From: Maribacter huludaoensis
Lineage (GTDB): Bacteria > Bacteroidota > Bacteroidia > Flavobacteriales > Flavobacteriaceae
Length of the DNA stretch: 64,000 nt
Reading direction: 5' to 3'
Assembly: GCF_029350945.1 (NCBI RefSeq)
Contig: NZ_JARKMS010000002.1
Location: forward strand, 825,376 to 889,375
Every line of letters begins with the position of its first letter. Within the stretch, counting starts at the first letter, position 1. Positions 2,486 through 26,230 of the stretch are shown piece by piece. The translations under genes and the position numbers were made by a program. The notes beneath the pieces are model-generated. The model did no database searches. It saw nothing but the letters and a program-made list of their open reading frames with translations, and had not been told where the DNA came from.

Positions 2486-2493
2486 CAAAAATA
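2486..2493 (-). promoter_or_regulatory. Candidate -7 element of glnII
   Basis: On the minus strand this reads TATTTTTG (TAnnTTTG), 33 nt before the glnII ATG. No TTG is placed for a -33 element. Instead TGAGGGT (plus strand 2521-2527) lies 35 nt upstream of its centre, as it does at the glnK promoter, which suggests activator dependence (inference). Confidence 0.5.
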
Positions 2494-2520
2494 TGTTTTT
2501 TATCAATCTGTATGAATTTT

Positions 2521-2527
2521 TGAGGGT
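2521..2527. promoter_or_regulatory. Putative nitrogen-regulator half-site
   Basis: TGAGGGT here is identical to the right arm of the glnK-proximal palindrome at 26170-26176. It lies at nearly the same distance from the -7 centre of its gene (35 nt for glnII, about 36 nt for glnK). The left arm is not conserved here. Confidence 0.35.
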
Positions 2528-2559
2528 GTTAATGTGTAAAAATTAAATTTTTTGTTATC

Positions 2560-2581
2560 TACCCCTATTTTTTATCGGGTA
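2560..2581. promoter_or_regulatory. Palindromic operator candidate between glnII and glnN
   Basis: The 22-nt site starts TACCCCTA and ends CGGGTA, giving TACCC/GGGTA arms around an AT-rich centre. Nearly the same site occurs upstream of glnK at 26210-26230. Its centre is about 81 nt from the glnII -7 box and 42 nt from the glnN -7 box, so one site could serve both divergent promoters. Binding by a regulator is inference. Confidence 0.55.
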
Positions 2582-2582
2582 T

Positions 2583-2616
2583 TTTGTCATATTTATATTT
2601 ATTGATCGTAATTTTG
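2583..2616 (+). promoter_or_regulatory. Candidate promoter of glnN
   Basis: TTTG at 2583-2586, a 22-nt spacer and TAATTTTG at 2609-2616 match the Bacteroidetes -33/-7 arrangement. The -7 box ends 11 nt before the ATG at 2628, and the palindrome at 2560-2581 abuts the -33 element. Confidence 0.55.
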
Positions 2617-2627
2617 TCAAATTAACA

Positions 2628-4826
2628 ATGTATTTATATATGAAGTCATCACGTTTTGCTGCTATTAATGCAAGTCAGAAAAGAAATAGTATTGCTGTTG
2701 AAGAGAAGGGAAGACGTTCCGATTTGTTCGGTATCAATGTGTTCAATGAAAAAAAAATGTTGCAATACTTAACGAAGGACGCTCTTGAAAGTTTAAAGGG
2801 TGCTATGGTGTCGGGATCTAAGATCGATCGTAAAATTGCAGATCAGGTAGCAGAGGCCATTAAAGGCTGGGCCATTACAATGGGCGCTACACACTATACA
2901 CATTGGTTTCAGCCATTAACAGGGTCTACTGCGGAGAAACACGATGCATTTTTTGACCTTTTACCAGATGGTACTGCATTGGAAAAATTTGGTGGCGGAC
3001 AATTAGTGCAGCAAGAACCGGATGCTTCTAGTTTTCCGAGCGGTGGAATTAGAAATACGTTTGAAGCTAGGGGATATACTGCATGGGATCCTTCTTCACC
3101 TGCTTTTATTTATGGCACTACTTTATGTATACCTACCATTTTTGTATCCTATACAGGTGAAGCCTTGGACAATAAAGCTCCATTGTTAAGAGCTTTGGGG
3201 GCTGTTGATGAGGCTGCTACCGCCGTTGCCAAGTATTTTGATAAAACGGTAAGTAAGGTCAATGCAACTTTAGGTTGGGAGCAAGAATATTTTTTGATAG
3301 ACAAAGCTCTTGCCCATTCTAGACCGGATATTATGATGACTGGCCGTACCCTGGTGGGTGAGACTCCTGCAAAAGGCCAGCAACTTGATGATCATTATTT
3401 TGGCGTAATACCAAGTCGTGTTTTAAGTTTTATGAGCGATTTGGAGCAGGAATGTACCAGATTGGGAATTCCTGTCAAGACCAGGCATAATGAGGTAGCT
3501 CCCAATCAGTTTGAGCTGGCTCCTGTTTTTGAGGAGGCCAATCTTGCTATTGACCATAACTTGTTGTTAATGGATGTTATGGATAAGATTGCTGATAAGC
3601 ATCATTTTAAAGTGCTTTTTCATGAAAAACCATTTGCAGGTATTAATGGTTCCGGTAAACATAACAATTGGTCTTTGGCCACAGATACGGGTGTAAACTT
3701 GTTGAGTCCGGGTTCTACGCCAATGAAAAACCTTCAGTTTTTAACCTTTTTTATTAATACGATCAAAGCCGTAGATACTTATGAGGAATTATTGCGATCC
3801 TCAATAGCATCTGCCGGTAATGATCATCGCTTGGGTGCAAATGAGGCTCCACCTGCTATTTTTTCAATTTTTGTCGGTTCGCAATTAAGTAATGTTCTAG
3901 ATGAATTAGAAGGGGTTTCTAAAGGGAAATTATCTCCCGAAGAAAAAACGGAACTAAAACTGAACGTGGTAGGTAAAATTCCAGAGATTTTAATGGATAA
4001 TACCGATCGTAACAGAACATCGCCTTTTGCCTTTACAGGAAATAAATTTGAAATGCGCGGTGTTGGTGCAAAAATGAACTGTGCCAAACCAATGACTGTT
4101 TTAAATACCATAGTAGCAAAGCAGTTAAGGGATTTTAAAAAAGAAGTGGATGTTTTGATCGATAAAAAAAATCTGAAAAAAGATGAGGCCGTTTTTAATG
4201 TACTTCGTGAATATATAAAAACATCAAAACGTATTAGGTTTGATGGTGATGGTTACAGTACTGATTGGGAAAATGAAGCTAAAAGAAGAAAACTAAGTAA
4301 TAATAAAAATACGCCTGATGCTCTTGAGGTCTTGACATCAAAAGATAGTATAGCATTGTTTGAATCTATGGGCGTAATGAGTGCTGTTGAGGTAAATGCC
4401 CGCCATGAAGTCGATTTGGAAAATTATATCATGCATTTACAGATAGAGGGTAGGGTGTACAATGAACTGGTATACGGTTACATTGTGCCGGCAGCTTTGG
4501 AGTATCAAAATAATTTGATTAAAAATGTAGCCGGTTTAAAGGAAATATACGGTGCTGCACATAAAAAATTCTCTGAAGGGCAATTGACAATGATAGAAGA
4601 TATAGCCGAGCATGTTGTAGGTATTAAAAAAATGGTAGATGCCATGGCCGATGCGCGTAAAAAAGCAAATGCCTTAAAGGATACCAAAAAGAAGGCCATT
4701 GCATATTGCCAAAATGTAAAGCCATATTTTCTGGAAATTAGAACACATAGCGATAAGCTAGAAAAATTAATGGACAACAAATTGTGGCCGTTGACAAAGT
4801 ATAGAGAATTGTTATTTATAGAATAA
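2628..4826 (+). CDS. glnN: Glutamine synthetase, type III
   Basis: Large dodecameric-type glutamine synthetase common in Bacteroidetes and cyanobacteria. The 732-residue length is typical of GSIII. Family motifs include GWEQEYFLID (about 217), RHNEVAPNQFELAPVFEEAN (about 285), GINGSGKHNNW (about 338), GNDHRLGANEAPP (about 397) and DRNRTSPFAFTGNKFEMRG (about 459), followed by a long helical C-terminal region. Start choice: ATG 2628 or the in-frame ATG at 2640; the first fits the promoter box. It is divergent from glnII, so this organism carries two unrelated GS types side by side, and the shared palindrome suggests joint control (inference). The 3' end is followed by a long inverted repeat that overlaps the next promoter. 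Confidence 0.96.
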   Translation: MYLYMKSSRFAAINASQKRNSIAVEEKGRRSDLFGINVFNEKKMLQYLTKDALESLKGAMVSGSKIDRKIADQVAEAIKGWAITMGATHYTHWFQPLTGSTAEKHDAFFDLLPDGTALEKFGGGQLVQQEPDASSFPSGGIRNTFEARGYTAWDPSSPAFIYGTTLCIPTIFVSYTGEALDNKAPLLRALGAVDEAATAVAKYFDKTVSKVNATLGWEQEYFLIDKALAHSRPDIMMTGRTLVGETPAKGQQLDDHYFGVIPSRVLSFMSDLEQECTRLGIPVKTRHNEVAPNQFELAPVFEEANLAIDHNLLLMDVMDKIADKHHFKVLFHEKPFAGINGSGKHNNWSLATDTGVNLLSPGSTPMKNLQFLTFFINTIKAVDTYEELLRSSIASAGNDHRLGANEAPPAIFSIFVGSQLSNVLDELEGVSKGKLSPEEKTELKLNVVGKIPEILMDNTDRNRTSPFAFTGNKFEMRGVGAKMNCAKPMTVLNTIVAKQLRDFKKEVDVLIDKKNLKKDEAVFNVLREYIKTSKRIRFDGDGYSTDWENEAKRRKLSNNKNTPDALEVLTSKDSIALFESMGVMSAVEVNARHEVDLENYIMHLQIEGRVYNELVYGYIVPAALEYQNNLIKNVAGLKEIYGAAHKKFSEGQLTMIEDIAEHVVGIKKMVDAMADARKKANALKDTKKKAIAYCQNVKPYFLEIRTHSDKLEKLMDNKLWPLTKYRELLFIE

Positions 4827-4843
4827 TCTTTTAATTAATTTTA

Positions 4844-4901
4844 AAAATAAGGGAATATTAAGCTGTTCAACGATTGCAGTTTTAATGATTCCCTTATTTT
4901 T
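4844..4901 (+). terminator. 14-bp inverted repeat: glnN terminator overlapping the next promoter
   Basis: AAAAATAAGGGAAT at 4844-4857 is perfectly complementary to ATTCCCTTATTTTT at 4888-4901, with a 30-nt loop, 17 nt after the glnN stop. The right arm ends in a T-run and contains most of the TATTTTTG box (4895-4902) of the next gene. A terminator that also carries a promoter element is the simplest reading. Confidence 0.55.
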
Positions 4902-4902
4902 G
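4874..4902 (+). promoter_or_regulatory. Candidate promoter of the purM-like gene
   Basis: TTG at 4874-4876, an 18-nt spacer and TATTTTTG at 4895-4902 precede the ATG at 4918. The -7 box is formed by the right arm of the inverted repeat at 4844-4901. Confidence 0.5.
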
Positions 4903-4917
4903 CGACAAATTTAAATT

Positions 4918-6096
4918 ATGTCCACATCAAGCAGTGAAAGGTATCAGCAACGCGGCGTTTCAGCCTCTAAAGAGGATGTACACAACGCAATTAAAAATAT
5001 TGACAAAGGTCTTTTTCCAAAGGCATTTTGTAAAATAGTTCCTGATTATTTGACCGGAGATAAAGATTATTGCTTGGTAATGCATGCTGATGGCGCCGGC
5101 ACAAAATCTTCCTTGGCTTATATGTACTGGAAAGAAACAGGAGATATTTCTGTTTGGAAAGGTATTGCACAAGATGCTTTGATCATGAATATTGATGATT
5201 TGATCTGTGTTGGTGCTACAGATAATATTATGCTTTCTTCTACCATTGGAAGAAATAAAAATAAAATACCTGGCGAAGTGCTTTCTGCCATTATCAACGG
5301 TACGGAAGAATTGATCAATGACTTAGGTGAATTCGGTATTACTATTCACTCTACGGGTGGTGAGACCGCAGATGTTGGAGATTTGGTCAGAACTATAATA
5401 GTAGATTCTACGGTTACGGCAAGATTGAAAAGGAGTGATGTTATCGATAATGCCAATATTAAGGCCGGTGATGTTATCGTTGGCCTAGAATCATTTGGTC
5501 AGGCCAATTATGAAAAGGAATATAATGGGGGAATGGGAAGTAACGGATTAACCTCTGCCCGTCATGATGTCTTCTCTAACTATTTAGCCGAAAAATTTCC
5601 AGAAAGTTTTGATGCCGAAGTACCTGATGATCTTGTTTACTCCGGTAATGTGAAGCTTACAGATGCTGTCAAGAACTCACCTTTAGATGCAGGTAAATTG
5701 GTGTTGTCACCAACAAGAACTTATGCACCGATCGTCAAAAAAATTCTTTCTAAATATAGCTCAAATGAAATTCACGGAATGATTCATTGTAGTGGAGGGG
5801 CGCAGACCAAAATTCTTCATTTTATAGATGAGCTGCATGTAGTTAAGGATAATTTATTTGATGTGCCGCCATTATTTCAATTAATTCAAGAACAATCTGG
5901 TACAGATTGGAAAGAGATGTATAAGGTGTTCAACTGTGGGCACAGACTAGAGTTTTATCTTCCGGAAAACGTAGCTGATGATATTATTGAAATTTCTAAA
6001 AGTTTTGGGGTAAATGCCCAAATAATTGGAAGGGTAGAAGCTTCTGATTCAAAAAAACTTACAATTTCAAGCAAGTACGGCACCTTTGTGTATTAG
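4918..6096 (+). CDS. purM: AIR synthase (phosphoribosylformylglycinamidine cyclo-ligase) family protein
   Basis: Predicted fifth step of purine synthesis: ATP-dependent closure of FGAM to aminoimidazole ribotide in the cytoplasm. The 392-residue protein has the PurM fold signatures: RYQQRGVSASKEDV at the N-terminus, HADGAGTKSSLAY (about 56-68), GGETADVGDLVRT (about 141) and IHCSGGAQTKI near 290. It is longer than enterobacterial PurM (about 345), as is usual for the Bacteroidetes form, which databases sometimes call only AIR synthase-related; that leaves some doubt about exact substrate. The gene stands alone between glnN and a Rieske lipoprotein rather than in a pur operon. Confidence 0.85.
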   Translation: MSTSSSERYQQRGVSASKEDVHNAIKNIDKGLFPKAFCKIVPDYLTGDKDYCLVMHADGAGTKSSLAYMYWKETGDISVWKGIAQDALIMNIDDLICVGATDNIMLSSTIGRNKNKIPGEVLSAIINGTEELINDLGEFGITIHSTGGETADVGDLVRTIIVDSTVTARLKRSDVIDNANIKAGDVIVGLESFGQANYEKEYNGGMGSNGLTSARHDVFSNYLAEKFPESFDAEVPDDLVYSGNVKLTDAVKNSPLDAGKLVLSPTRTYAPIVKKILSKYSSNEIHGMIHCSGGAQTKILHFIDELHVVKDNLFDVPPLFQLIQEQSGTDWKEMYKVFNCGHRLEFYLPENVADDIIEISKSFGVNAQIIGRVEASDSKKLTISSKYGTFVY

Positions 6097-6148
6097 TACA
6101 TACGATTAACGTAAATAAATCGTTCTTTTTGTATAAACCTATCTTGCT

Positions 6149-6592
6149 ATGGAAAGAAAAGAATTTTTACGAACATTAGGTGCCGGTGCTGCCTTTGCCA
6201 TAACTTTTCCCTGTCTTGGAAGTTGTTCAAAAGACAGTGATGTAGAAGGGGATATTGTAACTGCACCAACAGATGTAGATTTTACAATTGACCTAGAATC
6301 TTCAGAAGCTGCAAAACTTGCTAATAATGGCGGCTTCATACTAAAGAACCTAGTTGTAGTAGTTAGAAATTTAGAAGGAGAATTTGTTGCGGCTACACAG
6401 ATTTGTAGTCATGAGCAATATGATCAAGTACGTTTTGTAGATCAAGATGGCGGTATATTTTATTGTGATGTTCATGGGTCTAAATTTTCGCAGACCGGAG
6501 CACCGTTAAATGAGATTCCCAATAGCACTTCTAAAGTATTGAAAATTTATAACACATCTTTAGAGGGTTCCATATTACGTGTTTATGAATAA
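6149..6592 (+). CDS. Rieske [2Fe-2S] lipoprotein
   Basis: A 147-residue protein whose C-terminal half is a small Rieske domain: CSH at about residue 88 and CDVH at about 106 supply the Cys/His ligand pairs (C-x-H...C-x-x-H). The N-terminus RKEFLRTLGAGAAFAITF resembles a Tat signal with RK in place of RR and ends in a lipobox-like LGSC, so it is probably exported as a lipoprotein. It is far shorter than a bc1-complex Rieske subunit and no cytochrome b gene is near, so a respiratory complex subunit is unlikely. The next gene is apbE, encoding the periplasmic flavin-attaching enzyme, which suggests a shared extracytoplasmic redox role (inference). Confidence 0.8.
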   Translation: MERKEFLRTLGAGAAFAITFPCLGSCSKDSDVEGDIVTAPTDVDFTIDLESSEAAKLANNGGFILKNLVVVVRNLEGEFVAATQICSHEQYDQVRFVDQDGGIFYCDVHGSKFSQTGAPLNEIPNSTSKVLKIYNTSLEGSILRVYE

Positions 6593-6677
6593 GTAAAATA
6601 AAACTATTCAAGCATAAACTACACCAACCTAACTTATTATTCTTTATGACCATATTTACCCCCAATTAGAGAAGTAA

Positions 6678-7664
6678 GTGAAAAAGATTTTTGCCTTATT
6701 ATTATGTTTTATGACCTGCTATATGTATGGTCAAGAGCAGAGGTACGTAACGGTTAAAAAGTCTTACGATGTAATGGGCGGTGAATTTGATATTACCGTA
6801 ATCTCCGAAGATGAAGAGTTAGGATACATTTATATTCAAGAGGCCTTGGCAGAAGTACTAAGAATAGAAAAACTTATATCTTCTTGGGATGCTGATTCTG
6901 AAACCAGTCTGATCAATAAAAACGCCGGTATAAAACCCGTAACGGTTAGTTGGGAGCTTTATAAATTAATAGAGCGTTCTATATTGCTGTCAGAAATAAC
7001 CAATGGTGCTTTTGATATTACTTTTACTCCCTTAAATCATATTTGGAAGCTTGATGGTACTTTGCAAACCATGCCGTCTTCAGCAGCTGTAAAAGAGACA
7101 AAAAGCAAGGTCGGTTACAAAAATATAATACTAAATAGCAAGGATCAGTCTGTATTTTTGAATAAGAAAGGTATGCGAATTTCATTTGGTGGTATCGGTA
7201 AAGGTTTTGCCGCGGACAAGGCAAAGGCATTATTGGTCTCTAATGATGTAAAGGCAGGTATTATTAATATAGATGGTGATATTACCACTTGGGGTACAAA
7301 AGCTACGGGAGAAAAATGGTTGATAGGTGTGGTGAACCCTGATCAAAAGGGCGGCATAGCATCTTGGATACCTATTTTGGAGTCGTCTGTGGCAACTACT
7401 GGTGGCGATGGCAATTATATAATGTCTGGAAACAAAAAGTATACCCACATCATAGATCCTAGGTCTGGATATCCATCTACGGGTATAAACAGTGTATCCG
7501 TCTTTGCTAAAAGTGCGGAAACCTCAGATGCATTGGCTACTTCAGTATTTGTAATGGGACTTGATGCGGGACTTGCCTTAATTAATCAATTAGGAGATAC
7601 AGAGGTTATCATTGTTGATAGTGCAAATAAAATGTACAAGAGCAACGGGGTCTTACTTGATTAG
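6678..7664 (+). CDS. apbE: FAD:protein FMN transferase (ApbE family)
   Basis: ApbE enzymes use FAD to attach FMN covalently to threonine residues of exported redox proteins. The 328-residue protein starts with GTG at 6678 and a signal peptide ending near YMYGQ. Family motifs: SFGGIGKGFAADKA (about 174), INIDGDITTWG (about 197; the more usual form is a glycine pair before the Asp), TTGGDGNYIMSGNKKYTHIIDP (about 239-260) and ETSDALATSVFVMG (about 284), which contains the metal-binding Asp. It follows the Rieske lipoprotein by 85 nt in the same direction. No obvious flavinylated partner such as an Nqr subunit lies in the window. Confidence 0.9.
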   Translation: MKKIFALLLCFMTCYMYGQEQRYVTVKKSYDVMGGEFDITVISEDEELGYIYIQEALAEVLRIEKLISSWDADSETSLINKNAGIKPVTVSWELYKLIERSILLSEITNGAFDITFTPLNHIWKLDGTLQTMPSSAAVKETKSKVGYKNIILNSKDQSVFLNKKGMRISFGGIGKGFAADKAKALLVSNDVKAGIINIDGDITTWGTKATGEKWLIGVVNPDQKGGIASWIPILESSVATTGGDGNYIMSGNKKYTHIIDPRSGYPSTGINSVSVFAKSAETSDALATSVFVMGLDAGLALINQLGDTEVIIVDSANKMYKSNGVLLD

Positions 7665-7722
7665 ATTTCCATTTTTTAATCCTTACCGTAATAATCCCAC
7701 TAGGGTGTCTCTAATTTTATTG

Positions 7723-7730
7723 TAAATTTG
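7723..7730 (+). promoter_or_regulatory. Candidate -7 element of prfA
   Basis: TAAATTTG matches TAnnTTTG and lies 21 nt upstream of the prfA ATG at 7752. No clear -33 TTG is present. Confidence 0.4.
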
Positions 7731-7751
7731 CCGTACAAGTGAAGTAAGCAT

Positions 7752-8828
7752 ATGATAGACAAGTTAAACATCGTAAAACAACGTTTTGATGAGGTTTCAG
7801 ACCTTATAATTCAACCGGATATTATATCCGATCAAGAGAAATATGTAAAACTCACAAAAGAATATAAGGATCTTAAGGATTTGATGGATAAGCGAGAAGA
7901 ATACCTTGAGCTTACCAATAATATTGCCGAAGCAGAAGAGATTATTGCCGATGGTAGTGATGCCGAGATGCTAGAAATGGCAAAAATGCAAATGGAAGAG
8001 GCCAAGGCAGGATTGCCGAAGCTAGAAGAGGATATTAAATTGATGTTGATACCTAAAGACCCTGAAGATGCCAAGGATGTAGTTGTTGAAATTAGGGCCG
8101 GTACGGGTGGTGACGAAGCAAGTATTTTTGCAGGTGATCTTTTTAGAATGTATACCAAATATTGTGAAGGCAAAGGATGGAAAACTAATGTAATTGACCT
8201 CAGTGAAGGTACTAGTGGGGGTTACAAAGAAATACAGTTTGAGGTTACTGGTGCAAACGTTTATGGTACATTAAAGTTCGAGGCTGGTGTGCACCGTGTA
8301 CAACGTGTTCCCCAAACGGAAACCCAAGGAAGGGTGCATACTAGTGCAGCTACCGTTATGGTTCTGCCTGAAGCTGAAGATTTTGATGTACAGATAGATC
8401 CAAAAGATGTTAGAATAGATTTCTTCTGTTCTTCCGGTCCTGGTGGTCAGTCTGTAAACACAACATATTCCGCGGTTCGTCTAACCCACATTCCTACGGG
8501 ATTAATTGCCCAATGTCAAGATCAAAAATCGCAACATAAAAATAAGGACAAGGCGTTTAGGGTACTTCGTTCTAGATTGTATGATTTAGAATTGGCAAAG
8601 AAACAGGAAGAAGACGCTGCAAAAAGAAACTCTCAAGTAAGTAGTGGTGACCGTTCTGCAAAGATTAGAACATACAATTACCCACAAGGTAGGGTAACCG
8701 ATCACCGCATAGGTCTAACCTTATATGATTTGTCCAATATTATCGATGGTGATATTCAGAGAATAATAGACGAATTAAGTTTTGTTGAAAATACAGAGAA
8801 ATTGAGGGAAGCCTCTGAGATATTTTAA
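7752..8828 (+). CDS. prfA: Peptide chain release factor 1
   Basis: Recognises UAA and UAG stop codons and triggers peptide release on the ribosome. The 358-residue length is typical. The catalytic GGQ loop is present as [20 protein letters not shown] (about 233-252). The stop-codon recognition motif is PQT within [18 protein letters not shown] (about 188), that is P-x-T as in RF1 rather than the SPF of RF2. The [18 protein letters not shown] segment (about 118) matches RF1 domain 2. pyrF follows 3 nt after its stop, so the two are probably co-transcribed. Confidence 0.97.
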
Positions 8829-8831
8829 TTT

Positions 8832-9653
8832 ATGACCACTCAAGAGCTAGTTGCCCAAATACATAAAAAACAATCTTTTTTATGTATTGGTTTAGATACA
8901 GATCTAGAAAAGATTCCTTCATTTTTACTGGAAGACGAAGATCCTATTTTTGCATTCAACAAAGCCATTATAGATGCTACGCATGATTTGTGCGTGGCAT
9001 ACAAGCCAAATATTGCTTTTTATGAAGCATACGGTGTTCAGGGCTGGTCTGCATTGCGTAAGACCATTAAGTACCTGAATAAGAACTATCCTGATATTTT
9101 TACTATTGCAGATGCAAAAAGGGGAGATATAGGCAACACTTCTACAAGGTATGCAAAGGCATTTTTTGAAGATTTAAATTTTGATTCCATCACCATAGCT
9201 CCGTATATGGGAAGGGATTCTGTTGAGCCTTTTTTAGCGTTCAAGGATAAGCATACAATTTTACTTGCCTTAACCTCTAATCAGGGTGCTTTTGATCTGC
9301 AGACAAAAAAAATAGAAGGTAAAGAGCTCTATAAAGAAGTATTGTCTGTTTCTACGACGTACAAAGGTGCAGAGAACTTAATGTATGTGGTAGGTGCTAC
9401 CAAAGCTGAATACCTTAATGAAATTCGTGAGATTGTACCAAACAGCTTCTTGTTGGTCCCTGGAGTTGGAGCACAGGGCGGAAGTCTAGAAGAAGTTTGT
9501 AAATATGGAATGTCCAAAAACGTCGGTTTGCTAATAAACTCTTCGCGTGGAATAATTTATGCGTCCGATAATGAAAATTTTGCAGATGCCGCCAGATCTA
9601 AGGCAAAAGAGTTGCAGCAGTCTATGAAAATTGAGTTGGAAAAATTAGACTAA
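8832..9653 (+). CDS. pyrF: Orotidine 5'-phosphate decarboxylase (type 2)
   Basis: Last step of UMP synthesis: decarboxylation of OMP. The 273-residue protein shows the catalytic motif [16 protein letters not shown] (about 94-109) of the longer type 2 family, the N-terminal [12 protein letters not shown] and the phosphate-binding [11 protein letters not shown] (about 207). It begins 3 nt after prfA. Its last 9 nt overlap the end of the convergent 63-codon gene on the minus strand. The other de novo pyrimidine gene in the window, pyrD, lies 46 kb away. Confidence 0.96.
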
Positions 9654-9836
9654 ATCCTCTAAAGTTTTTTTAATTCTTTGAGCTTTTAATTCGAAAAATT
9701 CTCCTAATTGAGTGTTTGACTGAATGTTTGAAGCTTTTTCCATAAATGTCTGATATTGATACTCTAATAGACTGATGATATCATTATTCGCCTCCATTGG
9801 CGTTACCGATCCTACCTTACAATACTGCTTGCTCAT
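9645..9836 (-). CDS. Small conserved hypothetical protein
   Basis: A 63-residue, probably cytoplasmic and helical protein ([17 protein letters not shown]...). I do not recognise a domain. It looks real because it starts with ATG and has a TATATTTG -7 box on its own strand at 9858-9865. It is also convergent with pyrF, overlapping its end by 9 nt, instead of lying inside another gene. The sequence has a single Cys and a leucine-rich C-terminal helix. No function is suggested. Confidence 0.6.
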
Positions 9837-9857
9837 TATACTATGTTTTTGTTCTTA

Positions 9858-9865
9858 CAAATATA
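9858..9865 (-). promoter_or_regulatory. Candidate -7 element of the 63-aa gene
   Basis: The minus strand reads TATATTTG, 21 nt upstream of the ATG at 9836. Confidence 0.4.
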
Positions 9866-15940: not shown

Positions 15941-17401
15941 TTATTTCTTCCTATTTTCTATAAAGTCTTTTGGGGTCATGTGCATTCTTTGTTTAAATGC
16001 CTTGTAGAATGAAACTTTATTATTGAAACCACATTCGTAAATTAAATCTATAACCTGTTTGTTGTTATCTGTTTCAATTATTTTAACGGCTTCCGCTATT
16101 CTAAAATCATTAATTAATTCGTAGAAATTTTTATTTAATTCTTGATTTATTACCTGTGATAGGCTGTAACGGTCTACATTGATTTTTTTGGCAAGTTTGG
16201 ACAGTGTTAAAGTGTTATCCAAATATACTTTGTCAATATTCAGTGAATCTAATAACTGGTCTTTAACACGCAGACTCATATTCTCTGTCAAACTTGAGTT
16301 CTTGTACTTATTGTTTAATTTGTTCTTCTCTTCAAGGTTTATAGTACCTAAAATAATATTTGGTTGAATAATCAATAAAACTTCCAGCACAGAGATGAAC
16401 AGTATAAGATATACTGCTATAAAATACTTTGAAATATAGTCAAATACGTAAATGTGTTCAAAAGCGGCTCTTGCAATAATAAATAGTATCAATATAATAA
16501 TGAAGCCAATTAGTGTTAGCATCCATTTTTTAAACCCTTGGTCTAACTCTTTTCTTTTTAATTCAAAGTCTAAAATAATCAACATTAAATAGGCGGATAA
16601 GTGAATGGTTTTGATCCAATTATCGTTCATGACAAAATCTAACGCGTTCAAAAAAATATTATTTTCAGCATTTATGGTGTCATAAAAATTTCCAAAAATC
16701 AGTAAAGAAACCAAAACAAGAAAAAATGGTAGGTAGTGTAGCACAATTTCTTTTCTGCTAATATGTGTATCTGAATATTTGGTTTTTACATATAAATACA
16801 AAGAAGGGGCCCATAAGAAAAATAAGATCCTGTAAATTGAAACAGTAGGGGAGTAAGAGAAAAAATCTTGCCAATATAGTACCAGCTCTATCAATGCCAA
16901 GGATATGGCAAAAAGAAAAATGCCTAAATATATATTGTTGACTACATTTCTGTATTTATAGATTAAGGTAAAAGCTGTAATGAGTCCTATGAACGCTATT
17001 AGAACGAATATTATGTTTAATAGATAAACTTGTACTTTATGTTTGTAGTTATTGATGGCAACTTCATCTTCTTTCTCTAAATTTAATTCATCTTTCACTT
17101 CTAATTTAGTCAACTCGTTTCTAGAATCGTTTAGATAGTTTTGTAGGGTTTGCTCATCTGCAAAACCTAGAGATTTTGCCGAAATAAAATAATTGTACGC
17201 TTTGTTAAAGTTGTGGTTTTCGTATTCACATACCCCTAAAATGTAAAAATCTTCGGCGCTATATTCATCGATCTGTTTGGTAGAAATAGTAACAGATGCA
17301 CGTTCACAATCTATCAAATTTCCTGCAACCGGTTGTGGAATTAGATAGTTGAAAAACGATAATAATAATACAAGTGTTAAGGAAAAGTAGTTTGAAAGCA
17401 C
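15941..17401 (-). CDS. Membrane-embedded AraC-family transcriptional regulator
   Basis: A 486-residue protein with three parts: an N-terminal exported segment with a helix-turn-helix repeat resembling one TPR/Sel1 unit (ILGVCEYENHNFNKAYNYFI, about 54-73), a block of about seven or eight transmembrane helices (about 125-345), and a C-terminal AraC DNA-binding domain (about 385-486) containing LSKLAKKINVDRYSLSQVIN and IDLIYECGFNNKVSFYKAFK. The arrangement suggests direct membrane-to-DNA signalling without a kinase. It lies upstream of susC in the same direction, 315 nt away, and may regulate that operon (inference from position). The family is typical of Flavobacteriia and mostly uncharacterised. 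Confidence 0.85.
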   Translation of the reverse strand: MLSNYFSLTLVLLLSFFNYLIPQPVAGNLIDCERASVTISTKQIDEYSAEDFYILGVCEYENHNFNKAYNYFISAKSLGFADEQTLQNYLNDSRNELTKLEVKDELNLEKEDEVAINNYKHKVQVYLLNIIFVLIAFIGLITAFTLIYKYRNVVNNIYLGIFLFAISLALIELVLYWQDFFSYSPTVSIYRILFFLWAPSLYLYVKTKYSDTHISRKEIVLHYLPFFLVLVSLLIFGNFYDTINAENNIFLNALDFVMNDNWIKTIHLSAYLMLIILDFELKRKELDQGFKKWMLTLIGFIIILILFIIARAAFEHIYVFDYISKYFIAVYLILFISVLEVLLIIQPNIILGTINLEEKNKLNNKYKNSSLTENMSLRVKDQLLDSLNIDKVYLDNTLTLSKLAKKINVDRYSLSQVINQELNKNFYELINDFRIAEAVKIIETDNNKQVIDLIYECGFNNKVSFYKAFKQRMHMTPKDFIENRKK

Positions 17402-17555: not shown

Positions 17556-17563
17556 AACTAACT

Positions 17564-19273: not shown

Positions 19274-19357
19274 TGGTAAATAATTATGGCTTCAAAAATA
19301 GCTCATAATTCTTTAAGTGCCCGCTATATCTTTTAATTTGAGAAGATTTGAAAAAGA

Positions 19358-19747: not shown

Positions 19748-19804
19748 TATGTGGGATGTAATTAGCGTATTATAAAATTACGTTAGTTATTTGTAAATTT
19801 TCTA

Positions 19805-19838
19805 TTGAATAGAAACGTAATTTGTATTTTTACCTTTG
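19805..19838 (+). promoter_or_regulatory. Candidate promoter of the Lrp-type regulator
   Basis: TTG at 19805-19807 and TACCTTTG at 19831-19838 (23-nt spacer) precede the TTG start codon at 19866. Confidence 0.4.
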
Positions 19839-19865
19839 ATAATAAATATTTAAATAGAAATACTT

Positions 19866-20315
19866 TTGAATCCAAAGATTGATGAGCTTAATTGGAAAAT
19901 ACTGAAACAATTGCAGGATAATGCGAGAGAATCATTTGCAAATATTGGACGTGTTGTGGGGTTGACGGCACCTGCGGTTGCTGAACGTGTTAAGAAAATG
20001 GAAGACCTTGGTATTATACAAGGTTACAAGGCTACCGTGTCTCATGCATTAACCGGACACCAATTAAAGGCAATAATAACATTAAGGGCCTTTATGGGAA
20101 AATTAAAGCCTTTTTTAGCAGTGGTGCCGTCATTACAAGAAGTCATAAATTGTTATAGAATTACCGGAAACGAAAATATTGTAATGGAGGTAGTTTTAAA
20201 GGATCAATTCCATTTAGAAAAGTTTATTGATCAACTTATTCAATATGGTGAGACAAGAACACATATTGTGTTGTCTCAAGTAATTTCAAATGCGCCTATG
20301 CATAAGATTAAATAG
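19866..20315 (+). CDS. Lrp/AsnC-family transcriptional regulator
   Basis: A 149-residue feast/famine regulator. The N-terminal winged helix (about 1-60) contains LNWKILKQLQDNARESFANI and VVGLTAPAVAERVKKMEDLG; the C-terminal RAM/ligand domain includes CYRITGNENIVMEVVLKD (about 97-114), where the G-x-x-D-type effector motif reads GNEN. The start codon is TTG at 19866, supported by the promoter upstream and the canonical beginning of the HTH. It is divergent from the four-helix gene. Ligand and targets cannot be deduced; amino-acid sensing is the family norm. Confidence 0.9.
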   Translation: MNPKIDELNWKILKQLQDNARESFANIGRVVGLTAPAVAERVKKMEDLGIIQGYKATVSHALTGHQLKAIITLRAFMGKLKPFLAVVPSLQEVINCYRITGNENIVMEVVLKDQFHLEKFIDQLIQYGETRTHIVLSQVISNAPMHKIK

Positions 20316-20417
20316 AAATTTATATAATTGTTTTACTTAGTTTTAAATCTTGTATATAAAGTACAATTAATAACTATTGTTGAAAATTATTTTGGCTAGA
20401 TTTTTGATGTGAAATAA

Positions 20418-21833
20418 ATGATGAAAAAAATACTACTTCTTACGTTCGTTTTAATTTCTTCTATAGTTTATTCTCAAGAGCTTAGACTTCTTAAAGGTGC
20501 TATTACAGAAAATTTAATAGTAAACGATTCTGTCAACGAAACCTTTTCTCTTTATTTACCTACTAATTTTGATGTTAATAGGCCATGGCCGGTTACTTTT
20601 GTTATGGACTTGGAAGGAAAGGGCAGAGCATCTCTTTCTGTGTTGAGTAGTGCTGCAGAACAAGAAGGTTATGTATTGGCCAGCTCTAATAACTTGAGCG
20701 ATTCTCTTCCAATTTCCCAAAATGTTCTTATTGCAAATAGGATGTTAAATTCTGTATTTAAGTCTATACCTACTGCAAAATATAGAGTGTATACCGCGGG
20801 TTTTGAAAATGGGGCTATGTTCGCTTCCCTTTTACCTGCTTTTATAAGTGAACTGAAAGGAGTTATTTCTATAGGTGCTGCTATTGGTAGTTTTGAAGTT
20901 CTAAATCCCAAAAAACCTTATCAATTTATTGGCGTGGTCAACAGGGCGGATTTTAATTTTGCATCTATGTACCAGTCCAGATCGGAACTTAATAAATTGA
21001 AATTTCCTAATGAATTGTTGGTATTTGATGGTGAGCGAAATTTACCGGAAAAAAATATTATTGCAAAAGCATTTAGAATGTTGACATTGAGCAGTATGGC
21101 CAAAGGTCATTTACAACGAAACGATAGTTTGATCAATAGTTCTTACAATGAATTTTTGGTAGATGTAAATGCAAATGTGTCAAACCAAAAACCACTATTG
21201 GCTACCTATCAAATGTTGGATATGGAGAAAATATTCTATCCGTTAATGGAATTGGATTCATTAAAGGCTTCACAAAAAATATTAAGAAGAAGTACTTCGT
21301 ATAAGCAGGCCAATAGAAGCCAGAACAGTTATTTTTTAAAGGAGTCGTTTACCAAGGAGGATTATAGCTACTATTTAGAAGAGGATATCATTTCTTATAA
21401 CTATGCCAATTTAGGTTGGTGGAAATATCAAATGGAAGAACTGAATAAGTTGGATAAAAGTAGTAATCTGTTTGAGCGTCAAATGTCCTCTAGGTTAAGA
21501 GGTTACATCAATGCTTTGGTCTCCGATAATATAGATTTTATAGCTGCCGATGAAATAATAGATTGGGAAGCCTTGAATTTACTATATATGATAAAGACCA
21601 TTACCGCTCCAACTGAAAGCGAGGGGTATTTAAATGTAATGTCTGCCAGTTCAAAAATGGAGGATTATGGTACGGCTTTATTTTATTTGGAAGAGCTATT
21701 AAAAATGGGGTATTCAGATAAACAAAAGCTATATTCAATAGAACATACTTCGTTATTAAGAATTATGCCAGAGTTTAACGAGCTGATCGAAAAGTACTTA
21801 AAAGGCGCAAGATATGATGTTATTGAGCGGTAA
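20418..21833 (+). CDS. Secreted alpha/beta-hydrolase-like protein lacking the catalytic serine, with a C-terminal helical extension
   Basis: A 471-residue exported protein (signal peptide ending VYSQ, about 20). Residues 30-230 follow the plan of PHB-depolymerase/feruloyl-esterase-like hydrolases: FSLYLPTNFDVNRPWPVTFV (about 42-61) and VYTAGFENGAMFASLLPAFI (about 127-146). The latter should carry the G-x-S-x-G elbow, but it reads GFENG, with Glu in place of Ser. The usual HG..D motif after it reads VVNRADFNF. The remainder (about 230-471) is helical and may hold tetratricopeptide-like repeats near the C-terminus (YGTALFYLEELLKMG). It is probably a non-catalytic binding protein. Its last 14 nt overlap the convergent DJ-1 gene. 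Confidence 0.65.
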   Translation: MMKKILLLTFVLISSIVYSQELRLLKGAITENLIVNDSVNETFSLYLPTNFDVNRPWPVTFVMDLEGKGRASLSVLSSAAEQEGYVLASSNNLSDSLPISQNVLIANRMLNSVFKSIPTAKYRVYTAGFENGAMFASLLPAFISELKGVISIGAAIGSFEVLNPKKPYQFIGVVNRADFNFASMYQSRSELNKLKFPNELLVFDGERNLPEKNIIAKAFRMLTLSSMAKGHLQRNDSLINSSYNEFLVDVNANVSNQKPLLATYQMLDMEKIFYPLMELDSLKASQKILRRSTSYKQANRSQNSYFLKESFTKEDYSYYLEEDIISYNYANLGWWKYQMEELNKLDKSSNLFERQMSSRLRGYINALVSDNIDFIAADEIIDWEALNLLYMIKTITAPTESEGYLNVMSASSKMEDYGTALFYLEELLKMGYSDKQKLYSIEHTSLLRIMPEFNELIEKYLKGARYDVIER

Positions 21834-22563
21834 GGTGTGGCACCTTGGCCAAATCCCAATCTATGACGAGACCTTTTGCCAAAGATTTGGTAATTTCCTT
21901 TCCATATAGCACTTCGCAAAGATATAATGCTGCTTCAAAACTTTTTGCACCACCTGCCGAAGTAATGTATTTTCCATCGTGAACAAAAAGTACATTGTCC
22001 TTTATGTTTAAATTGGGGAACATGTTTCTGTAATTTTCAACATCACTTGGAAAAGTGGTTGAAGCAACTGAATCTAGAATACCAGCTTTTGCCAAGAGGA
22101 AGGCTCCGTCGCAATGACTGGTCATGTACAGTGCGGTTTTGTCAATTTTTTTAATAAAATCCAGCATTAATGTGTCTTTCAAATCAGAGTCCATTGAATG
22201 CTCCGCGCTAGGTACTACCAAAATATCTATTTTGGGTAAATCATCTTTGGTATAATCATAGTCTGGCAGTATACGAACGCCTTCAAAAGTAGTGATAGGT
22301 TCTAGTGTGTTGGCAACTGAAAAAGTGTTCATTGCCTTAATATTCTCTCTATATTTTGTATGCTGAAAAATATCAAACGGTGCCGTAAACTCTGTGTTGA
22401 AAGTGCCTTGCATAATTAGAAAGGCAACATTATAGTTTTTAGGATTTAGTTCTGGTAGTACTCTAGCTTTTTCTGTTATGACCTCTTTTTTTACAGCTGT
22501 ATTGTTTTCTTGACAACTGCATAAGGTGATTAGTAAAATGGGTAAAATATATATAAACTTCAT
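21820..22563 (-). CDS. DJ-1/PfpI-family lipoprotein
   Basis: A 247-residue protein with a lipoprotein signal (MKFIYILPILLITLCSC; an ATG two codons earlier at 22569 is possible). The mature part is a class I glutamine-amidotransferase-like domain of the DJ-1/PfpI kind: NYNVAFLIMQGTFNTEFTAP (about 44), IDILVVPSAEHSMDSDL (about 112) and the nucleophile elbow MTSHCDGAFLLAKAG, where Cys lies in H-C-D-G (about 151). TFEGVRILPDYDY and VHDGKYITSAGGAKS match the AraC-associated branch (GATase1 of FtrA-like regulators), but here no HTH follows and the protein is exported. Substrate unknown; periplasmic placement is unusual for the family. Confidence 0.8.
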   Translation of the reverse strand: MKFIYILPILLITLCSCQENNTAVKKEVITEKARVLPELNPKNYNVAFLIMQGTFNTEFTAPFDIFQHTKYRENIKAMNTFSVANTLEPITTFEGVRILPDYDYTKDDLPKIDILVVPSAEHSMDSDLKDTLMLDFIKKIDKTALYMTSHCDGAFLLAKAGILDSVASTTFPSDVENYRNMFPNLNIKDNVLFVHDGKYITSAGGAKSFEAALYLCEVLYGKEITKSLAKGLVIDWDLAKVPHLTAQ

Positions 22564-22654
22564 GATCATAAATGTATAGGGTTCTAAAGTACGATTATAT
22601 GTTAAAATAACTTAAGGTGAATAAATTGTATTTTTGAAATATAAAGAATGAACT

Positions 22655-23299
22655 ATGAGATTATGTATTGCCGTTTTGGTTTTGGGTATGTTCGTTTCAT
22701 GCGGACAAGAAAAGAAATATCACGATGTAAAAGATCAGGTCAAGTTAGCGGTAACATCAGATAAGATAGCGGATATTCTAAAATTTCAGGAAGAATTGAA
22801 CGCTGAGTTTAAAGATCCGGAAACTTCTCCATTGGCAGATCGCTTTCGTATTAATTTTGAGTCGTTAGATTTCTTTGAGCCGGATACCAGCTACGTTGTT
22901 CAGGCAGAATTTATAAGAACGCCTGAAGCTTTACCTTTTGCAATGCCTACTACAACAGATAGAGAATCAACAGAGGTGGTCTACGGTATAGCTAAATTTA
23001 CCTTAAATGGAAAGGAGCATGAATTAGAAATTTATCAATCTCCAGAACTAATTAAGCAAGCAGAATATGAAGATTATTTGTTTTTGCCTTTTACGGATAA
23101 AACAAATGGAGAAGAGACCTATGGTGGAGGTAGGTATTTAGATTTAACAATACCCAAGGGAAATAAGATAATTTTGAATTTCAATAAAGCCTATAATCCT
23201 TATTGCGCTTATAATAAGAAGTTTAGTTGTCCAATTGTTCCTAAGGTCAATAATTTGGATACAGAAATTAAAGTAGGGGTGAAAGCCTTTGAACATTAA
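22655..23299 (+). CDS. DUF1684 lipoprotein
   Basis: A 214-residue predicted lipoprotein (lipobox MFVSC, Cys at about 16). The body matches DUF1684: LKFQEELNAEFKDPETSPL (about 43-61), YGIAKFTLNGKEHELEIYQS (about 109), YGGGRYLDLTIPKGNKIILN and NKAYNPYCAYNKKFSCPIVP (about 184-203), which holds conserved Cys residues. The family has no established biochemical role; the sequence suggests a beta-rich extracytoplasmic domain. It is convergent with the porin gene and shares a bidirectional terminator. Confidence 0.85.
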   Translation: MRLCIAVLVLGMFVSCGQEKKYHDVKDQVKLAVTSDKIADILKFQEELNAEFKDPETSPLADRFRINFESLDFFEPDTSYVVQAEFIRTPEALPFAMPTTTDRESTEVVYGIAKFTLNGKEHELEIYQSPELIKQAEYEDYLFLPFTDKTNGEETYGGGRYLDLTIPKGNKIILNFNKAYNPYCAYNKKFSCPIVPKVNNLDTEIKVGVKAFEH

Positions 23300-23311
23300 T
23301 GGGGAAAATAA

Positions 23312-23340
23312 AAAACCTCGGCAGGTATTGCCGAGGTTTT
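23312..23340. terminator. Bidirectional terminator, DUF1684/porin
   Basis: A perfect 12-bp stem, AAAACCTCGGCA / TGCCGAGGTTTT with a GGTAT loop, flanked by A and T tracts, lies between convergent genes. Confidence 0.9.
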
Positions 23341-23382
23341 AAAACTTAAACTATAAAATCAACCATTAATTTTGTAAACAAC

Positions 23383-24399
23383 TTAGAAAGAGTAAACAGC
23401 TGCTACTAAGAAAGAAGATAAGCTTTTAGAAGCTGCACCGTCTGCATCAAAGTAAGGCTCTACATCATTACCCCAAGAATCTAATCTGATCTCAGGCTTA
23501 ATTGTTAAGTTTTCTACCGAGTAACTTCCTGTTAGAGTCAATCCTAATACACTTGGGTTGTCAATACCAGGTGTATCTAAATCAACAGCAAAGTATTCAC
23601 CTCTTAAACCTATTGAGAAGTCATCTGAAGTAGCGTATTGAGGGTAAAGCGCTACACCTGAAAATCCTGCACCGTCGTTATCTGCATAAGCTGCATTTAT
23701 TCCTAAGAAGAAATCTTCAGAAAGATCAAAACCACCTGTGTAATCAATTTCGAAACCTAATGCTTCACCACCATCGTAGTAGAAGTTAAGGTACTGACCT
23801 GAATACCCTAATTGAGCACCTGCAGAGTAAGCCCCGGTTAAGTTATTGTTCGTATCAGTTACGTTCATAATAGCTAACATTAAACTGAAATCATCAGAAA
23901 GTGCAAAATCAGCCTTTAAACCTACGTGAGAGAAAGGTCCATTAGAAAATAAGTAAGATGTGCTGTAGTTAAAATTGCCTACAGGAGAAATTACTTCGTA
24001 TCCTAAATAGGTATTAAACCTACCCATTGTTAAAGTAGTACCTTCGGATACATTCCAGTAAGCATAAAGTTGGTTTAAGTTATACCCGCCAACAGCTTCA
24101 TCTCCTCTTGGTCCAAAAACTACATCTGCAACTACACCTGTTTTTTCGCCTTCGTAGGCAGCAATTATATTTGCCATACCTAGAGCAAAACCTAATTCAT
24201 TGGCAAATGAACTGCCGAATGATTGTGCTGTTGCGTCTGATGCACTTAAGTTAGTTTGATAGTAAGCATCAACAGAACCACTAATACTTATTTTTTTCTC
24301 TTCTTCCTCTTCTTGAGCTACTACACCAGCCGCTGCAAAAAGCATAAGCCCTGTTGCGAAAATATTTTTTACGTACTTTGTATTTATAATCGTTTTCAT
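23383..24399 (-). CDS. Outer-membrane beta-barrel porin associated with ammonium uptake
   Basis: A 338-residue exported protein (signal peptide to about VVAQ, residue 29, then an acidic EEEEEKK stretch). The rest alternates hydrophobic and polar residues and ends in AAVYSF, a terminal aromatic as expected for an outer-membrane barrel. The pattern GSVDAYYQTNLS...LGMANIIAAYEGEKTGVVADVVFGPRG resembles the BBP2 putative beta-barrel porin family. It is the third gene of glnK-amt-porin, 100 nt after amt, with a hairpin in between. A role in letting ammonium or another small nitrogen compound through the outer membrane is inference from position. Confidence 0.8.
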   Translation of the reverse strand: MKTIINTKYVKNIFATGLMLFAAAGVVAQEEEEEKKISISGSVDAYYQTNLSASDATAQSFGSSFANELGFALGMANIIAAYEGEKTGVVADVVFGPRGDEAVGGYNLNQLYAYWNVSEGTTLTMGRFNTYLGYEVISPVGNFNYSTSYLFSNGPFSHVGLKADFALSDDFSLMLAIMNVTDTNNNLTGAYSAGAQLGYSGQYLNFYYDGGEALGFEIDYTGGFDLSEDFFLGINAAYADNDGAGFSGVALYPQYATSDDFSIGLRGEYFAVDLDTPGIDNPSVLGLTLTGSYSVENLTIKPEIRLDSWGNDVEPYFDADGAASKSLSSFLVAAVYSF

Positions 24400-24467
24400 A
24401 AGTTTTGATTTAATCCCTAATGGGATGAATTAATTTTGAGAAATTTATTTATTGAAAAGGTTATGTA

Positions 24468-24493
24468 ACGGAGCGTTCTGCAAAACGCTCCGT
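24468..24493 (-). terminator. Intercistronic hairpin between amt and the porin gene
   Basis: ACGGAGCGTT / AACGCTCCGT (24468-24477 and 24484-24493) forms a perfect 10-bp stem 6 nt after the amt stop. In the amt direction no T-run follows (the T-run is on the other side), so it is more likely a partial terminator, RNA-processing or stabilising element than a full terminator. Confidence 0.6.
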
Positions 24494-24499
24494 ATTTTT

Positions 24500-25738
24500 T
24501 TAGTGTTGGTTCATTCTAAAATCAGCATAAGCATCCATACCGTGCTCATGAATATCTAGACCTTCAACTTCTTCTTCTTTAGAAACTCTAAGTCCAATAG
24601 TAGCTTTAAGTACTCCTAAGATAATACCAGAGGTAACTATACAGAACCCGCCTACAATCAATACACCGTATAATTGTGTCATGAACTGAGCTCCACTGGC
24701 CATGCTACCAAAGATACCTACAACCAATGTTCCCCAAATACCACAGATCAAGTGAACCGCTACGGCACCTACAGGGTCATCTAATTTTAATTTGTCTACC
24801 AAGGCAACACCACCTACAATGATAATACCGGCAATGAATCCAATGATTACAGCTTCGTTTGGTGACATTAAATCCGCTCCTGCGGTAATACCTACCAATC
24901 CACCAAGAATACCGTTCAAGAACATAGTTAAATCTAGGTTCTTATAAAGAATAGTAGAGGTAATCATTGCTCCAAATCCACCAGCGGCTGCAGCCAAACT
25001 TGTAGTCACCAATACTAAAGATGTCAATTCTGGATCTGCGGATAATACTGATCCACCGTTAAACCCGAACCATCCTAACCATAATATCAATACACCAGCC
25101 GTAGCCATTGGTATACTATGGCCCGGTATAGCTTTTGGTTTACCATCTTTACCGAATTTTCCAATTCTAGAACCTAAAAGATAAATTGCAACTAAAGCTG
25201 CCCACCCACCAACTGAGTGTACTAATGTAGAACCTGCAAAATCATAGAATCCCCATGAATCCAAGAATCCGCCTCCCCATTTCCAAGCACCTACTATAGG
25301 GTATACCAAACCAACATAGATTACGGTAAATATCATGAAAGCTCCAATTTTCATACGTTCTGCTACTGCACCAGATACAATAGTAGCCGCTGTAGCCGCG
25401 AACATTCCTTGGAAAAGAAAGTCTGTCCACCATGTGTAGCCACCATCTGCATAGTCTGGTGTCATACCACCTTCAGGGGCACCTATACCAAAACCTGCAA
25501 ATTTTAAAAGACCCATATCTCCTTCTTCAAAACCTGGGTACATTAAATTGAATCCCCATGCATAGTAAAGAAGTAATCCACCTGTTATAATGAAGATATT
25601 CTTGAACAATATGTTGATCGTGTTCTTTTGTCTTGTTAAGCCAATCTCTAAAAAGGCAAAACCAGTATGCATGAAGAATACCAATGCGGTAGCCACCATC
25701 ATCCATACGTTATTTGCTGTAAATAATCCTGCGTCCAT
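24500..25738 (-). CDS. amt: Ammonium transporter
   Basis: Inner-membrane Amt/Mep/Rh channel conducting ammonium. The 412-residue protein begins without a long signal and shows eleven predicted helices. Signature features: FFMHTGFAFLEIGLTRQKNT (about 21-40), FAGSTLVHSVGGWAALVAIY (about 170, first pore His) and HLICGIWGTLVVGIFG (about 330, second pore His). The GWFGFNGGS motif near 225 is also present. The C-terminal tail YADFRMNQH is the cytosolic segment that interacts with PII. It is 34 nt after glnK, the classic genetic pairing. Expression is probably linked to nitrogen limitation through the upstream palindromes (inference). Confidence 0.96.
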   Translation of the reverse strand: MDAGLFTANNVWMMVATALVFFMHTGFAFLEIGLTRQKNTINILFKNIFIITGGLLLYYAWGFNLMYPGFEEGDMGLLKFAGFGIGAPEGGMTPDYADGGYTWWTDFLFQGMFAATAATIVSGAVAERMKIGAFMIFTVIYVGLVYPIVGAWKWGGGFLDSWGFYDFAGSTLVHSVGGWAALVAIYLLGSRIGKFGKDGKPKAIPGHSIPMATAGVLILWLGWFGFNGGSVLSADPELTSLVLVTTSLAAAAGGFGAMITSTILYKNLDLTMFLNGILGGLVGITAGADLMSPNEAVIIGFIAGIIIVGGVALVDKLKLDDPVGAVAVHLICGIWGTLVVGIFGSMASGAQFMTQLYGVLIVGGFCIVTSGIILGVLKATIGLRVSKEEEVEGLDIHEHGMDAYADFRMNQH

Positions 25739-25772
25739 TTCGTTTAGTTTTTTAGTTAGTTAGTTATTTTAT

Positions 25773-26111
25773 TTAGTTAATACCGGCCAAACCGTCTTCT
25801 TTAGTTCTTATTCTATATGCTTGAAGAACTTCGGATACAAATATTTTACCGTCACCTACATTGCCAGAGTAAGCTGCCTCTAGTATTTTATTAACTGTTT
25901 TTTCAAGAAAGTCATCTGATACTACAATGGTTAGGTACCTACGTTGAATATCTGTAGTACTGTAAGAGATACCACGGTACACGTGACCTTCTTTTTCATT
26001 ACCTACACCTGTTACATCCCAGTAACTGAAGAAATTTACTTCAATACTGTGCAACGCTTCTTTGACATCGTCAAACTTTGATTTTCTAATAATTGCCTCG
26101 ATTTTTTTCAT
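25773..26111 (-). CDS. glnK: PII nitrogen regulatory protein, divergent T-loop
   Basis: Trimeric signalling protein that binds ATP/ADP and 2-oxoglutarate and gates Amt. Start at 26111 gives the canonical MKKIEAIIRKSKFDDVKEAL and a 112-residue product; the longer frame to 26159 runs through the promoter region. GDGKIFV (about 86) and the C-terminal YRIRTKEDG fit PII. The T-loop keeps YRGISY, with the tyrosine equivalent to Tyr51, but lacks the glutamine equivalent to Gln39 (GNEK here) and the segment after Tyr51 is STTDIQRRY rather than VDFLPK. The loop is one residue shorter. It leads the glnK-amt-porin operon. Confidence 0.92.
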   Translation of the reverse strand: MKKIEAIIRKSKFDDVKEALHSIEVNFFSYWDVTGVGNEKEGHVYRGISYSTTDIQRRYLTIVVSDDFLEKTVNKILEAAYSGNVGDGKIFVSEVLQAYRIRTKEDGLAGIN

Positions 26112-26133
26112 TTGAATAAGTTTTTGATATTGC

Positions 26134-26141
26134 CAAATATA
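26134..26141 (-). promoter_or_regulatory. Candidate -7 element of the glnK operon
   Basis: The minus strand reads TATATTTG, 22 nt upstream of the ATG at 26111. There is no TTG at the -33 position; that place is taken by the proximal palindrome at 26157-26177, which suggests activation. Confidence 0.5.
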
Positions 26142-26156
26142 TGTTAAAAACATTGG

Positions 26157-26177
26157 CACCCTAAAAATATGAGGGTA
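26157..26177. promoter_or_regulatory. Proximal nitrogen-operator candidate upstream of glnK
   Basis: The site has arms CACCCTA and TGAGGGTA around an AT-rich centre (21 nt). Its centre is about 30 nt upstream of the -7 box centre. It resembles the second site at 26210-26230, 53 nt away (about five helical turns), and the glnII/glnN site. Confidence 0.5.
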
Positions 26178-26209
26178 TCTGTGTATATTTTTATGAGTAT
26201 GACAATATA

Positions 26210-26230
26210 TACCCCTAAAATTTTAGGGTA
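26210..26230. promoter_or_regulatory. Distal nitrogen-operator candidate upstream of glnK
   Basis: This 21-nt site contains a perfect 16-bp palindrome, CCCTAAAATTTTAGGG (26213-26228). Its TACCCCTA...GGGTA outline matches 2560-2581. The centre is about 82 nt from the glnK -7 box, compared with about 81 nt for the matching site at glnII. Confidence 0.6.

Follow-up and report, generated by a model that had tools for sequence, protein, structure and literature searches.

A conserved tandem site pair as a candidate operator of nitrogen-assimilation genes in the Flavobacteriaceae

Two near-palindromic DNA sites lie upstream of the glnK and amt genes of Maribacter huludaoensis, and a related arrangement separates its divergent glutamine synthetase genes glnII and glnN. 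Both loci are in the 64,000-nucleotide (nt) stretch of contig NZ_JARKMS010000002.1 that was analyzed here and is called the window (G000:C8:825376-889375 of a 4.24-Mb genome). Its sequence and distribution mark the site pair as a true operator of nitrogen assimilation, conserved and with a defined arrangement in tandem, and we consider it likely that it serves a nitrogen-assimilation regulon in the Flavobacteriaceae and some other Bacteroidia and acts by tandem-dimer activation. The unit consists of two near-palindromes with the consensus TACCCCT-N7-9-AGGGGTA, one half of which is often degenerate. They are set 51-54 base pairs (bp) apart, which is five helical turns and so places both sites on the same face of the DNA. 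A first-pass annotation of the window had proposed a shared palindrome as the operator of a nitrogen regulator; the proposal is supported as to the operator, and the unit proves to be the site pair rather than one palindrome. Bacteroidota are prominent degraders of polymers, both in the sea and in the gut, and neither the control of their ammonium assimilation nor any nitrogen-control operator of the phylum is described in the titles and abstracts of the literature searched, most papers in subscription journals being outside the scope of that search. A precise operator and its list of targets open the question to experiment, as they define a bait fragment, reporter mutants and the genes expected to respond together.

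The features at the two loci are as follows, in window coordinates.

1431..2453, minus strand: glnII, type II glutamine synthetase (NF041605, 364 bits, below the cut-off of 500)
2486..2493, minus strand: -7 box of glnII, TATTTTTG, read from the sequence
2521..2527: half-site TGAGGGT / ACCCTCA, proximal for glnII and distal for glnN
2560..2581: palindrome common to glnII and glnN, TACCCCTATTTTTTATCGGGTA, distal for glnII (about -90) and proximal for glnN
2594..2601, plus strand: possible -7 box of glnN, TATATTTA, 14 nt from the G-run
2609..2616, plus strand: alternative -7 box of glnN, TAATTTTG; as with TATATTTA, the spacing is not the usual 17 nt
2640..4826, plus strand: glnN, glutamine synthetase (start taken as 2640), with weak glutamine synthetase matches only
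24500..25738, minus strand: amt, ammonium transporter, downstream of glnK (TIGR00836, over cut-off)
25773..26111, minus strand: glnK, PII protein (PF00543 over cut-off; NCBIfam P-II models below their cut-offs)
26134..26141, minus strand: -7 box of glnK, TATATTTG, which fits the flavobacterial primary sigma consensus TAnnTTTG
26157..26177: proximal palindrome of the glnK-amt promoter, TACCCTCATATTTTTAGGGTG, centered at about -38
26187..26194, minus strand: mid-element ATAAAAAT, halfway between the glnK palindromes and a conserved block in the glnK alignment A1
26210..26230: distal palindrome of the glnK-amt promoter, reading TACCCTAAAATTTTAGGGGTA on the glnK strand, centered at about -91; conserved

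We take glnN to encode a type III glutamine synthetase, the type being named from length and context. The closest GlnK among the public loci listed, from which very near records may have been left out, is that of a Maribacter metagenome-assembled genome (96% identity). The three palindromes were found exactly where the first-pass annotation had placed them, and its half-site is present as well. It had also described the sites as lying in the same orientation, which says little for near-palindromes. Its distances of about 82 nt (glnK) and 81 nt (glnII) from the center of the -7 box to the distal palindrome came out at 82.5 and 81 nt, and the sequence agrees with it that neither promoter has a TTG at -33.

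Positions were reckoned by setting the -7 box at -12 to -5, following PMC9723704, which also gives the consensus TAnnTTTG for the flavobacterial primary sigma factor. On this scale the centers of the two glnK sites fall near -38 and -91. For glnII they fall near -37, reckoned from the half-site, and near -90, which puts the proximal half-site over the -33 element. At glnK the inner half of the proximal palindrome covers the -33 region; 17 nt separate the end of its G-run from the -7 box, and for the G-run of the distal palindrome this distance is 70 nt. The palindrome at 2560..2581 would be used by both glnII and glnN. Directly after it, in the window's clade, comes TATTTTG (2577-2586), which is kept in many relatives and may represent a second, overlapping glnN promoter.

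We searched 120 genomes of the family for GlnK and GlnN and found matches in 81 and 112 of them, respectively. Many of the genomes in which glnK is the first gene have two palindromes upstream of it, with centers mostly 52-54 bp apart; halfway between them is an A-tract, frequently ATAAAAAT, and the second palindrome is followed by a TAnnTTT(G/A) box. In other genera glnK is internal to an operon, and the pair is mostly found farther upstream and, where read, before the first gene of that operon. For counting we used 300-nt upstream regions of 71 glnK genes (one of 72 was too short), including those inside operons, and of 70 glnN genes, 30 of them from search loci and 40 from chosen places, mainly in genomes with no clear glnK. 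A palindrome was scored when the gap from C-run to G-run was 9-11, and a tandem when two G-runs or two C-runs were 51-54 bp apart; in these regions the G-run spacing has a sharp peak at 51-54, and the C-run-to-G-run gaps peak at 9-11. Palindrome and tandem occur together in 38 of the 71 glnK regions and 53 of the 70 glnN regions. The tandem by itself was counted in 39 and 64, respectively. Dinucleotide shuffles gave means of 0.42 (maximum 2) for glnK and 0.38 (maximum 3) for glnN. Among 227 upstream regions of other genes, from named flavobacterial loci, three have both features; judged by sequence, one of them stands before a porin operon, which is a target in its own right, and another resembles gltD by eye. 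The motif is therefore both conserved across the family at glnK and glnN and far commoner there than elsewhere, two properties for which the first-pass annotation had asked.

The pair also keeps a favored phase to the promoter. Measured from where a G-run ends to the TA that opens a TAnnTTT(G/A) box, the distance is exactly 17 nt in 21 of the 71 glnK regions and 19 of the 70 glnN regions, and 16-18 nt in 30 and 24. The corresponding distance of 69-70 nt is found in 32 glnK regions and 17 glnN regions. The next-best distance below 60 nt is 46 nt for glnK, in three regions, and 31 nt for glnN, in nine of the 70.

This layout resembles that of the tandem (class III) Crp promoters of Escherichia coli, where two sites about five turns apart lie on one face of the DNA and the nearer one covers the -35 region; the sequence of the sites is different here. 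Like those promoters, the present ones have an integral number of turns between the sites and a favored phase to the core promoter. We suggest that, when nitrogen is scarce, two dimers of one DNA-binding protein would occupy the site pair and recruit RNA polymerase to primary-sigma promoters of nitrogen-assimilation genes. The proximal dimer would make up for the lack of a -33 element, and the A-tract would be framed by the two dimers for the C-terminal domain of the alpha subunit, for which the mid-element ATAAAAAT is a possible contact. One site pair could serve two divergent promoters, as at glnII/glnN and gltB/porin-amt. Activation itself is inferred from the position of the sites, and the bound protein is in this sense a candidate activator.

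Position can also be read the other way. AmtR and NrpR are repressors that leave their sites when nitrogen is scarce, and a repressor bound to the same operator could block the -33 region and depart under the same circumstances. The overlap of the proximal half-site with the -33 region would suit such a protein, as would the promoter-like TATTTTG that directly follows the shared glnII/glnN palindrome in many relatives of the window's clade. We nevertheless regard repression as unlikely: the favored phase at glnK and glnN is more typical of activators, as is a second site some 53 bp farther out beyond a conserved A-tract, and glnK and glnII of the window have no -33 TTG.

To find further targets we used R1, a profile of 104 positions built from sequence only on 31 glnK sites chosen by a palindrome score of at least 18, with the window's genus left out along with loci L002, L003, L028 and L071. 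In the genome of the window R1 matches the glnK site at 59.9 bits (E = 1e-15) and a site upstream of ald, the alanine dehydrogenase gene (E = 6e-4). The glnII/glnN region is matched at E = 0.003 on the plus strand and only weakly, at E = 4.8, on the minus strand, the glnII side; the pair thus matches as a tandem on both strands, either of which, in the first-pass annotation, could use the site. Within the family R1 matches 93 of the 120 genomes at E<=0.003. Among the 150 matches listed (E down to 1.3e-4), 125 are by glnK or glnN: they lie no more than 6 kb before glnK, in 62 of 74 genomes, or within 400 nt of glnN, in 33 genomes. The 74 are those of the 81 GlnK genomes whose match had an E of 5.9e-29 or better, the weaker ones looking like paralogues. 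Of the glnK genomes not used in R1, 32 of 43 have a match at most 6 kb upstream of glnK among the matches listed.

The other 25 matches listed fall in 19 places, one of them at a second glnK copy and 15 at amt, porin, gltB or ald genes. By a reading of the open reading frames, the 18 places apart from the second glnK comprise seven that precede amt or porin-amt, several of these divergent from gltB, seven that precede ald, and one about 240-320 nt before gltB and just past another gene, as in the genome of the window. One of the remaining places is before a DUF6733 gene, one is by no recognized nitrogen gene, and one is inside an open reading frame; examples of each gene name were checked against Pfam. 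In the genome of the window and its relatives together, the arrangement is found upstream of glnK-amt, porin-amt-glnK, amt, gltB, ald and glnII/glnN. The genome scan that had been proposed at the outset has in this way added ald in the genome itself and amt, gltB and ald in relatives, while its match at the genome's own gltB is weak and uncertain.

Several results weigh against activation through a conserved site pair, or against the breadth that we give it. Centers near -38 would also suit a repressor. The -7 box stands at 16-18 nt in fewer than half of the regions, glnN has its lesser peak at 31 nt, and the glnN and ald genes of the window's genome have no -7 box at 17 nt. A match of R1 within an apparent cytochrome oxidase gene of that genome (E = 0.0025) is on a par with the one at glnII/glnN. 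The site at its gltB gene ranks 13th (E = 0.13) and lies about 280 nt upstream, directly after another gene; it is uncertain and could be a terminator instead. Among the matches listed, 12 of the 74 glnK genomes have none within 6 kb, and the glnN regions of G022 and G023 (L123, L124) show no ACCC/GGGT pair by eye. For the bare pattern TACCC-N11-GGGTA there is no enrichment: the window has 14 matches with at most two mismatches (shuffle mean 15.4), and the genome has 85 with at most one mismatch, against 88 for the reversed control. As G023 is a single contig, it would make a good negative genome for tracing the regulator.

The single pattern was dropped as a genome-wide detector for want of enrichment, and the evidence rests on the paired arrangement, the promoter phase and the conservation, not on the bare palindrome. 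That lack of enrichment would suit sites that are AT-rich palindromes arisen by chance, RNA elements, or terminators belonging to the genes upstream, and most of the lower-scoring matches of R1 in the window's genome are chance, terminators or coding sequence. For the sites at issue such an origin is extremely improbable: it is contradicted by the shuffles, by the real upstream regions used as controls and by the phase with the -7 box, the sites lie upstream of the inferred transcription start, and the window has no Rfam match.

Beyond the family the operator becomes sparse. A scan of 296 genomes of the class with R1 gave matches in 16 at E<=2e-4, ten of them Flavobacteriaceae, including the genome of the window. 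Six of the genomes are outside the family. In five of these (G355, G323, G407, G278 and G261) the site lies shortly before glnN, a gene recognized by eye, and in the sixth, G271, it lies inside an open reading frame. Among 80 named GlnK loci, R1 at E<=0.01 matches 32 of the 43 in L187-L229 and two of the 37 in L230-L266 (Tangfeifania, L230, and Alistipes, L247). The Prevotellaceae locus L242 has two GGGGGTA half-sites by eye and no R1 match. At the sensitivity of R1 the predicted operator is thus present in a minority of genomes outside the family. A single operator-like match in the Alistipes metagenome-assembled genome (L247, 9241-19851) stands before a co-oriented series of genes: porin-like, glnK, amt, asnA-like, glnN and gltB. 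Of these, glnK was named by homology and the others by eye.

What protein binds the pair may be approached through its distribution. The operator is also present in genomes in which no GlnK was found (e.g., G009, G068 and G029), so that a general regulator would have to respond to glutamine, 2-oxoglutarate or glutamine synthetase independently of PII. An Lrp/AsnC regulator is suggested by the operator core CCC-N9-GGG, since Lrp-type sites have a 3-9-3 layout, and three groups of such proteins were compared. The gene of the first, Lrp-C, is in the window between glnII/glnN and glnK (19866-20315, plus strand) and is a conserved glnK neighbor in 16 of 43 flavobacterial loci; by eye, it was the only regulator among neighbor families occurring beside glnK in at least four of the 80 public loci. 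Lrp-A is encoded near ald in two relatives, and Lrp-B is near-universal in the family. The distribution of Lrp-C does not track the operator, close homologues being absent from operator-bearing G014, G025, G043 and G113, and Lrp-A likewise has no close homologue in operator-bearing G118, G062, G063 and G113. Lrp-B is missing from G041 and, at E<=1e-8, from G323, G407, G278 and G261 of other families; it is the single Lrp shown in G035, where the operator at glnN was judged by eye, and upstream of Lrp-B genes no operator was seen, except for two C-runs in G092. One orthologous Lrp/AsnC protein across all operator-bearing genomes was rejected as a candidate, since each of the three groups is missing somewhere, and we hold an Lrp/AsnC regulator to be improbable, although separate lineages may use separate Lrp paralogues.

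Crp-family helix-turn-helix proteins (PF13545) are present in nine of 12 genomes searched and were not found in operator-bearing G035 and G052, which are only 91 and 90% complete. The three Lrp/AsnC groups and the Crp family thus appear to fit the regulator poorly. Autoregulation was looked for, and no regulator gene was recognized directly downstream in the 18 further places. The operator resembles MerR-type operators; a MerR stretch used as query had no match in the fetched loci, which are partial genomes. The NarL-type heptamer TACYYMT resembles TACCCCT.

Comparison with the known nitrogen systems yields both likenesses and differences. In cyanobacteria the Crp-family protein NtcA activates genes for glutamine synthetase, Amt and PII from sites at about -41.5 of primary-sigma promoters. 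The gene set, activator-type position and promoter class are similar here, whereas the NtcA box GTA-N8-TAC differs from the paired ACCCC..GGGGT and is not enriched: it occurs in nine of 71 glnK regions (shuffles 4-11), in two of 70 glnN regions (below the 4-10 of shuffles), and in neither region of the window. GlnR and TnrA of the Bacilli, of the MerR family, are dedicated regulators of glutamine synthetase, amt-glnK and gltB that act through palindromes at these genes, as is seen here, but the tandem of 51-54 bp with an A-tract between is a difference. Their motif TGTNA-N7-TNACA is not enriched at one mismatch (17 of 71 glnK and 14 of 70 glnN regions, shuffles 13-20; one in the window's glnK region). 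Paired palindromes upstream of nitrogen genes are also a feature of NtrC and sigma-54, whereas many promoters here have a primary-sigma -7 box instead. The NtrC box is absent from all 71 glnK and 70 glnN regions, and -24/-12 matches occur in six glnK regions (1-5 in five shuffles) and one glnN region (0-6); the regions of the window have neither.

With somewhat less than even confidence, we propose that the operator may belong to a general nitrogen control of the class Bacteroidia apart from NtrC, NtcA, GlnR, AmtR and Lrp, with a bidirectional tandem operator and a regulator whose family has no known part in nitrogen control. As a separate observation, the window also encodes a 486-residue protein with a C-terminal AraC-type helix-turn-helix domain (15941-17401, minus strand).

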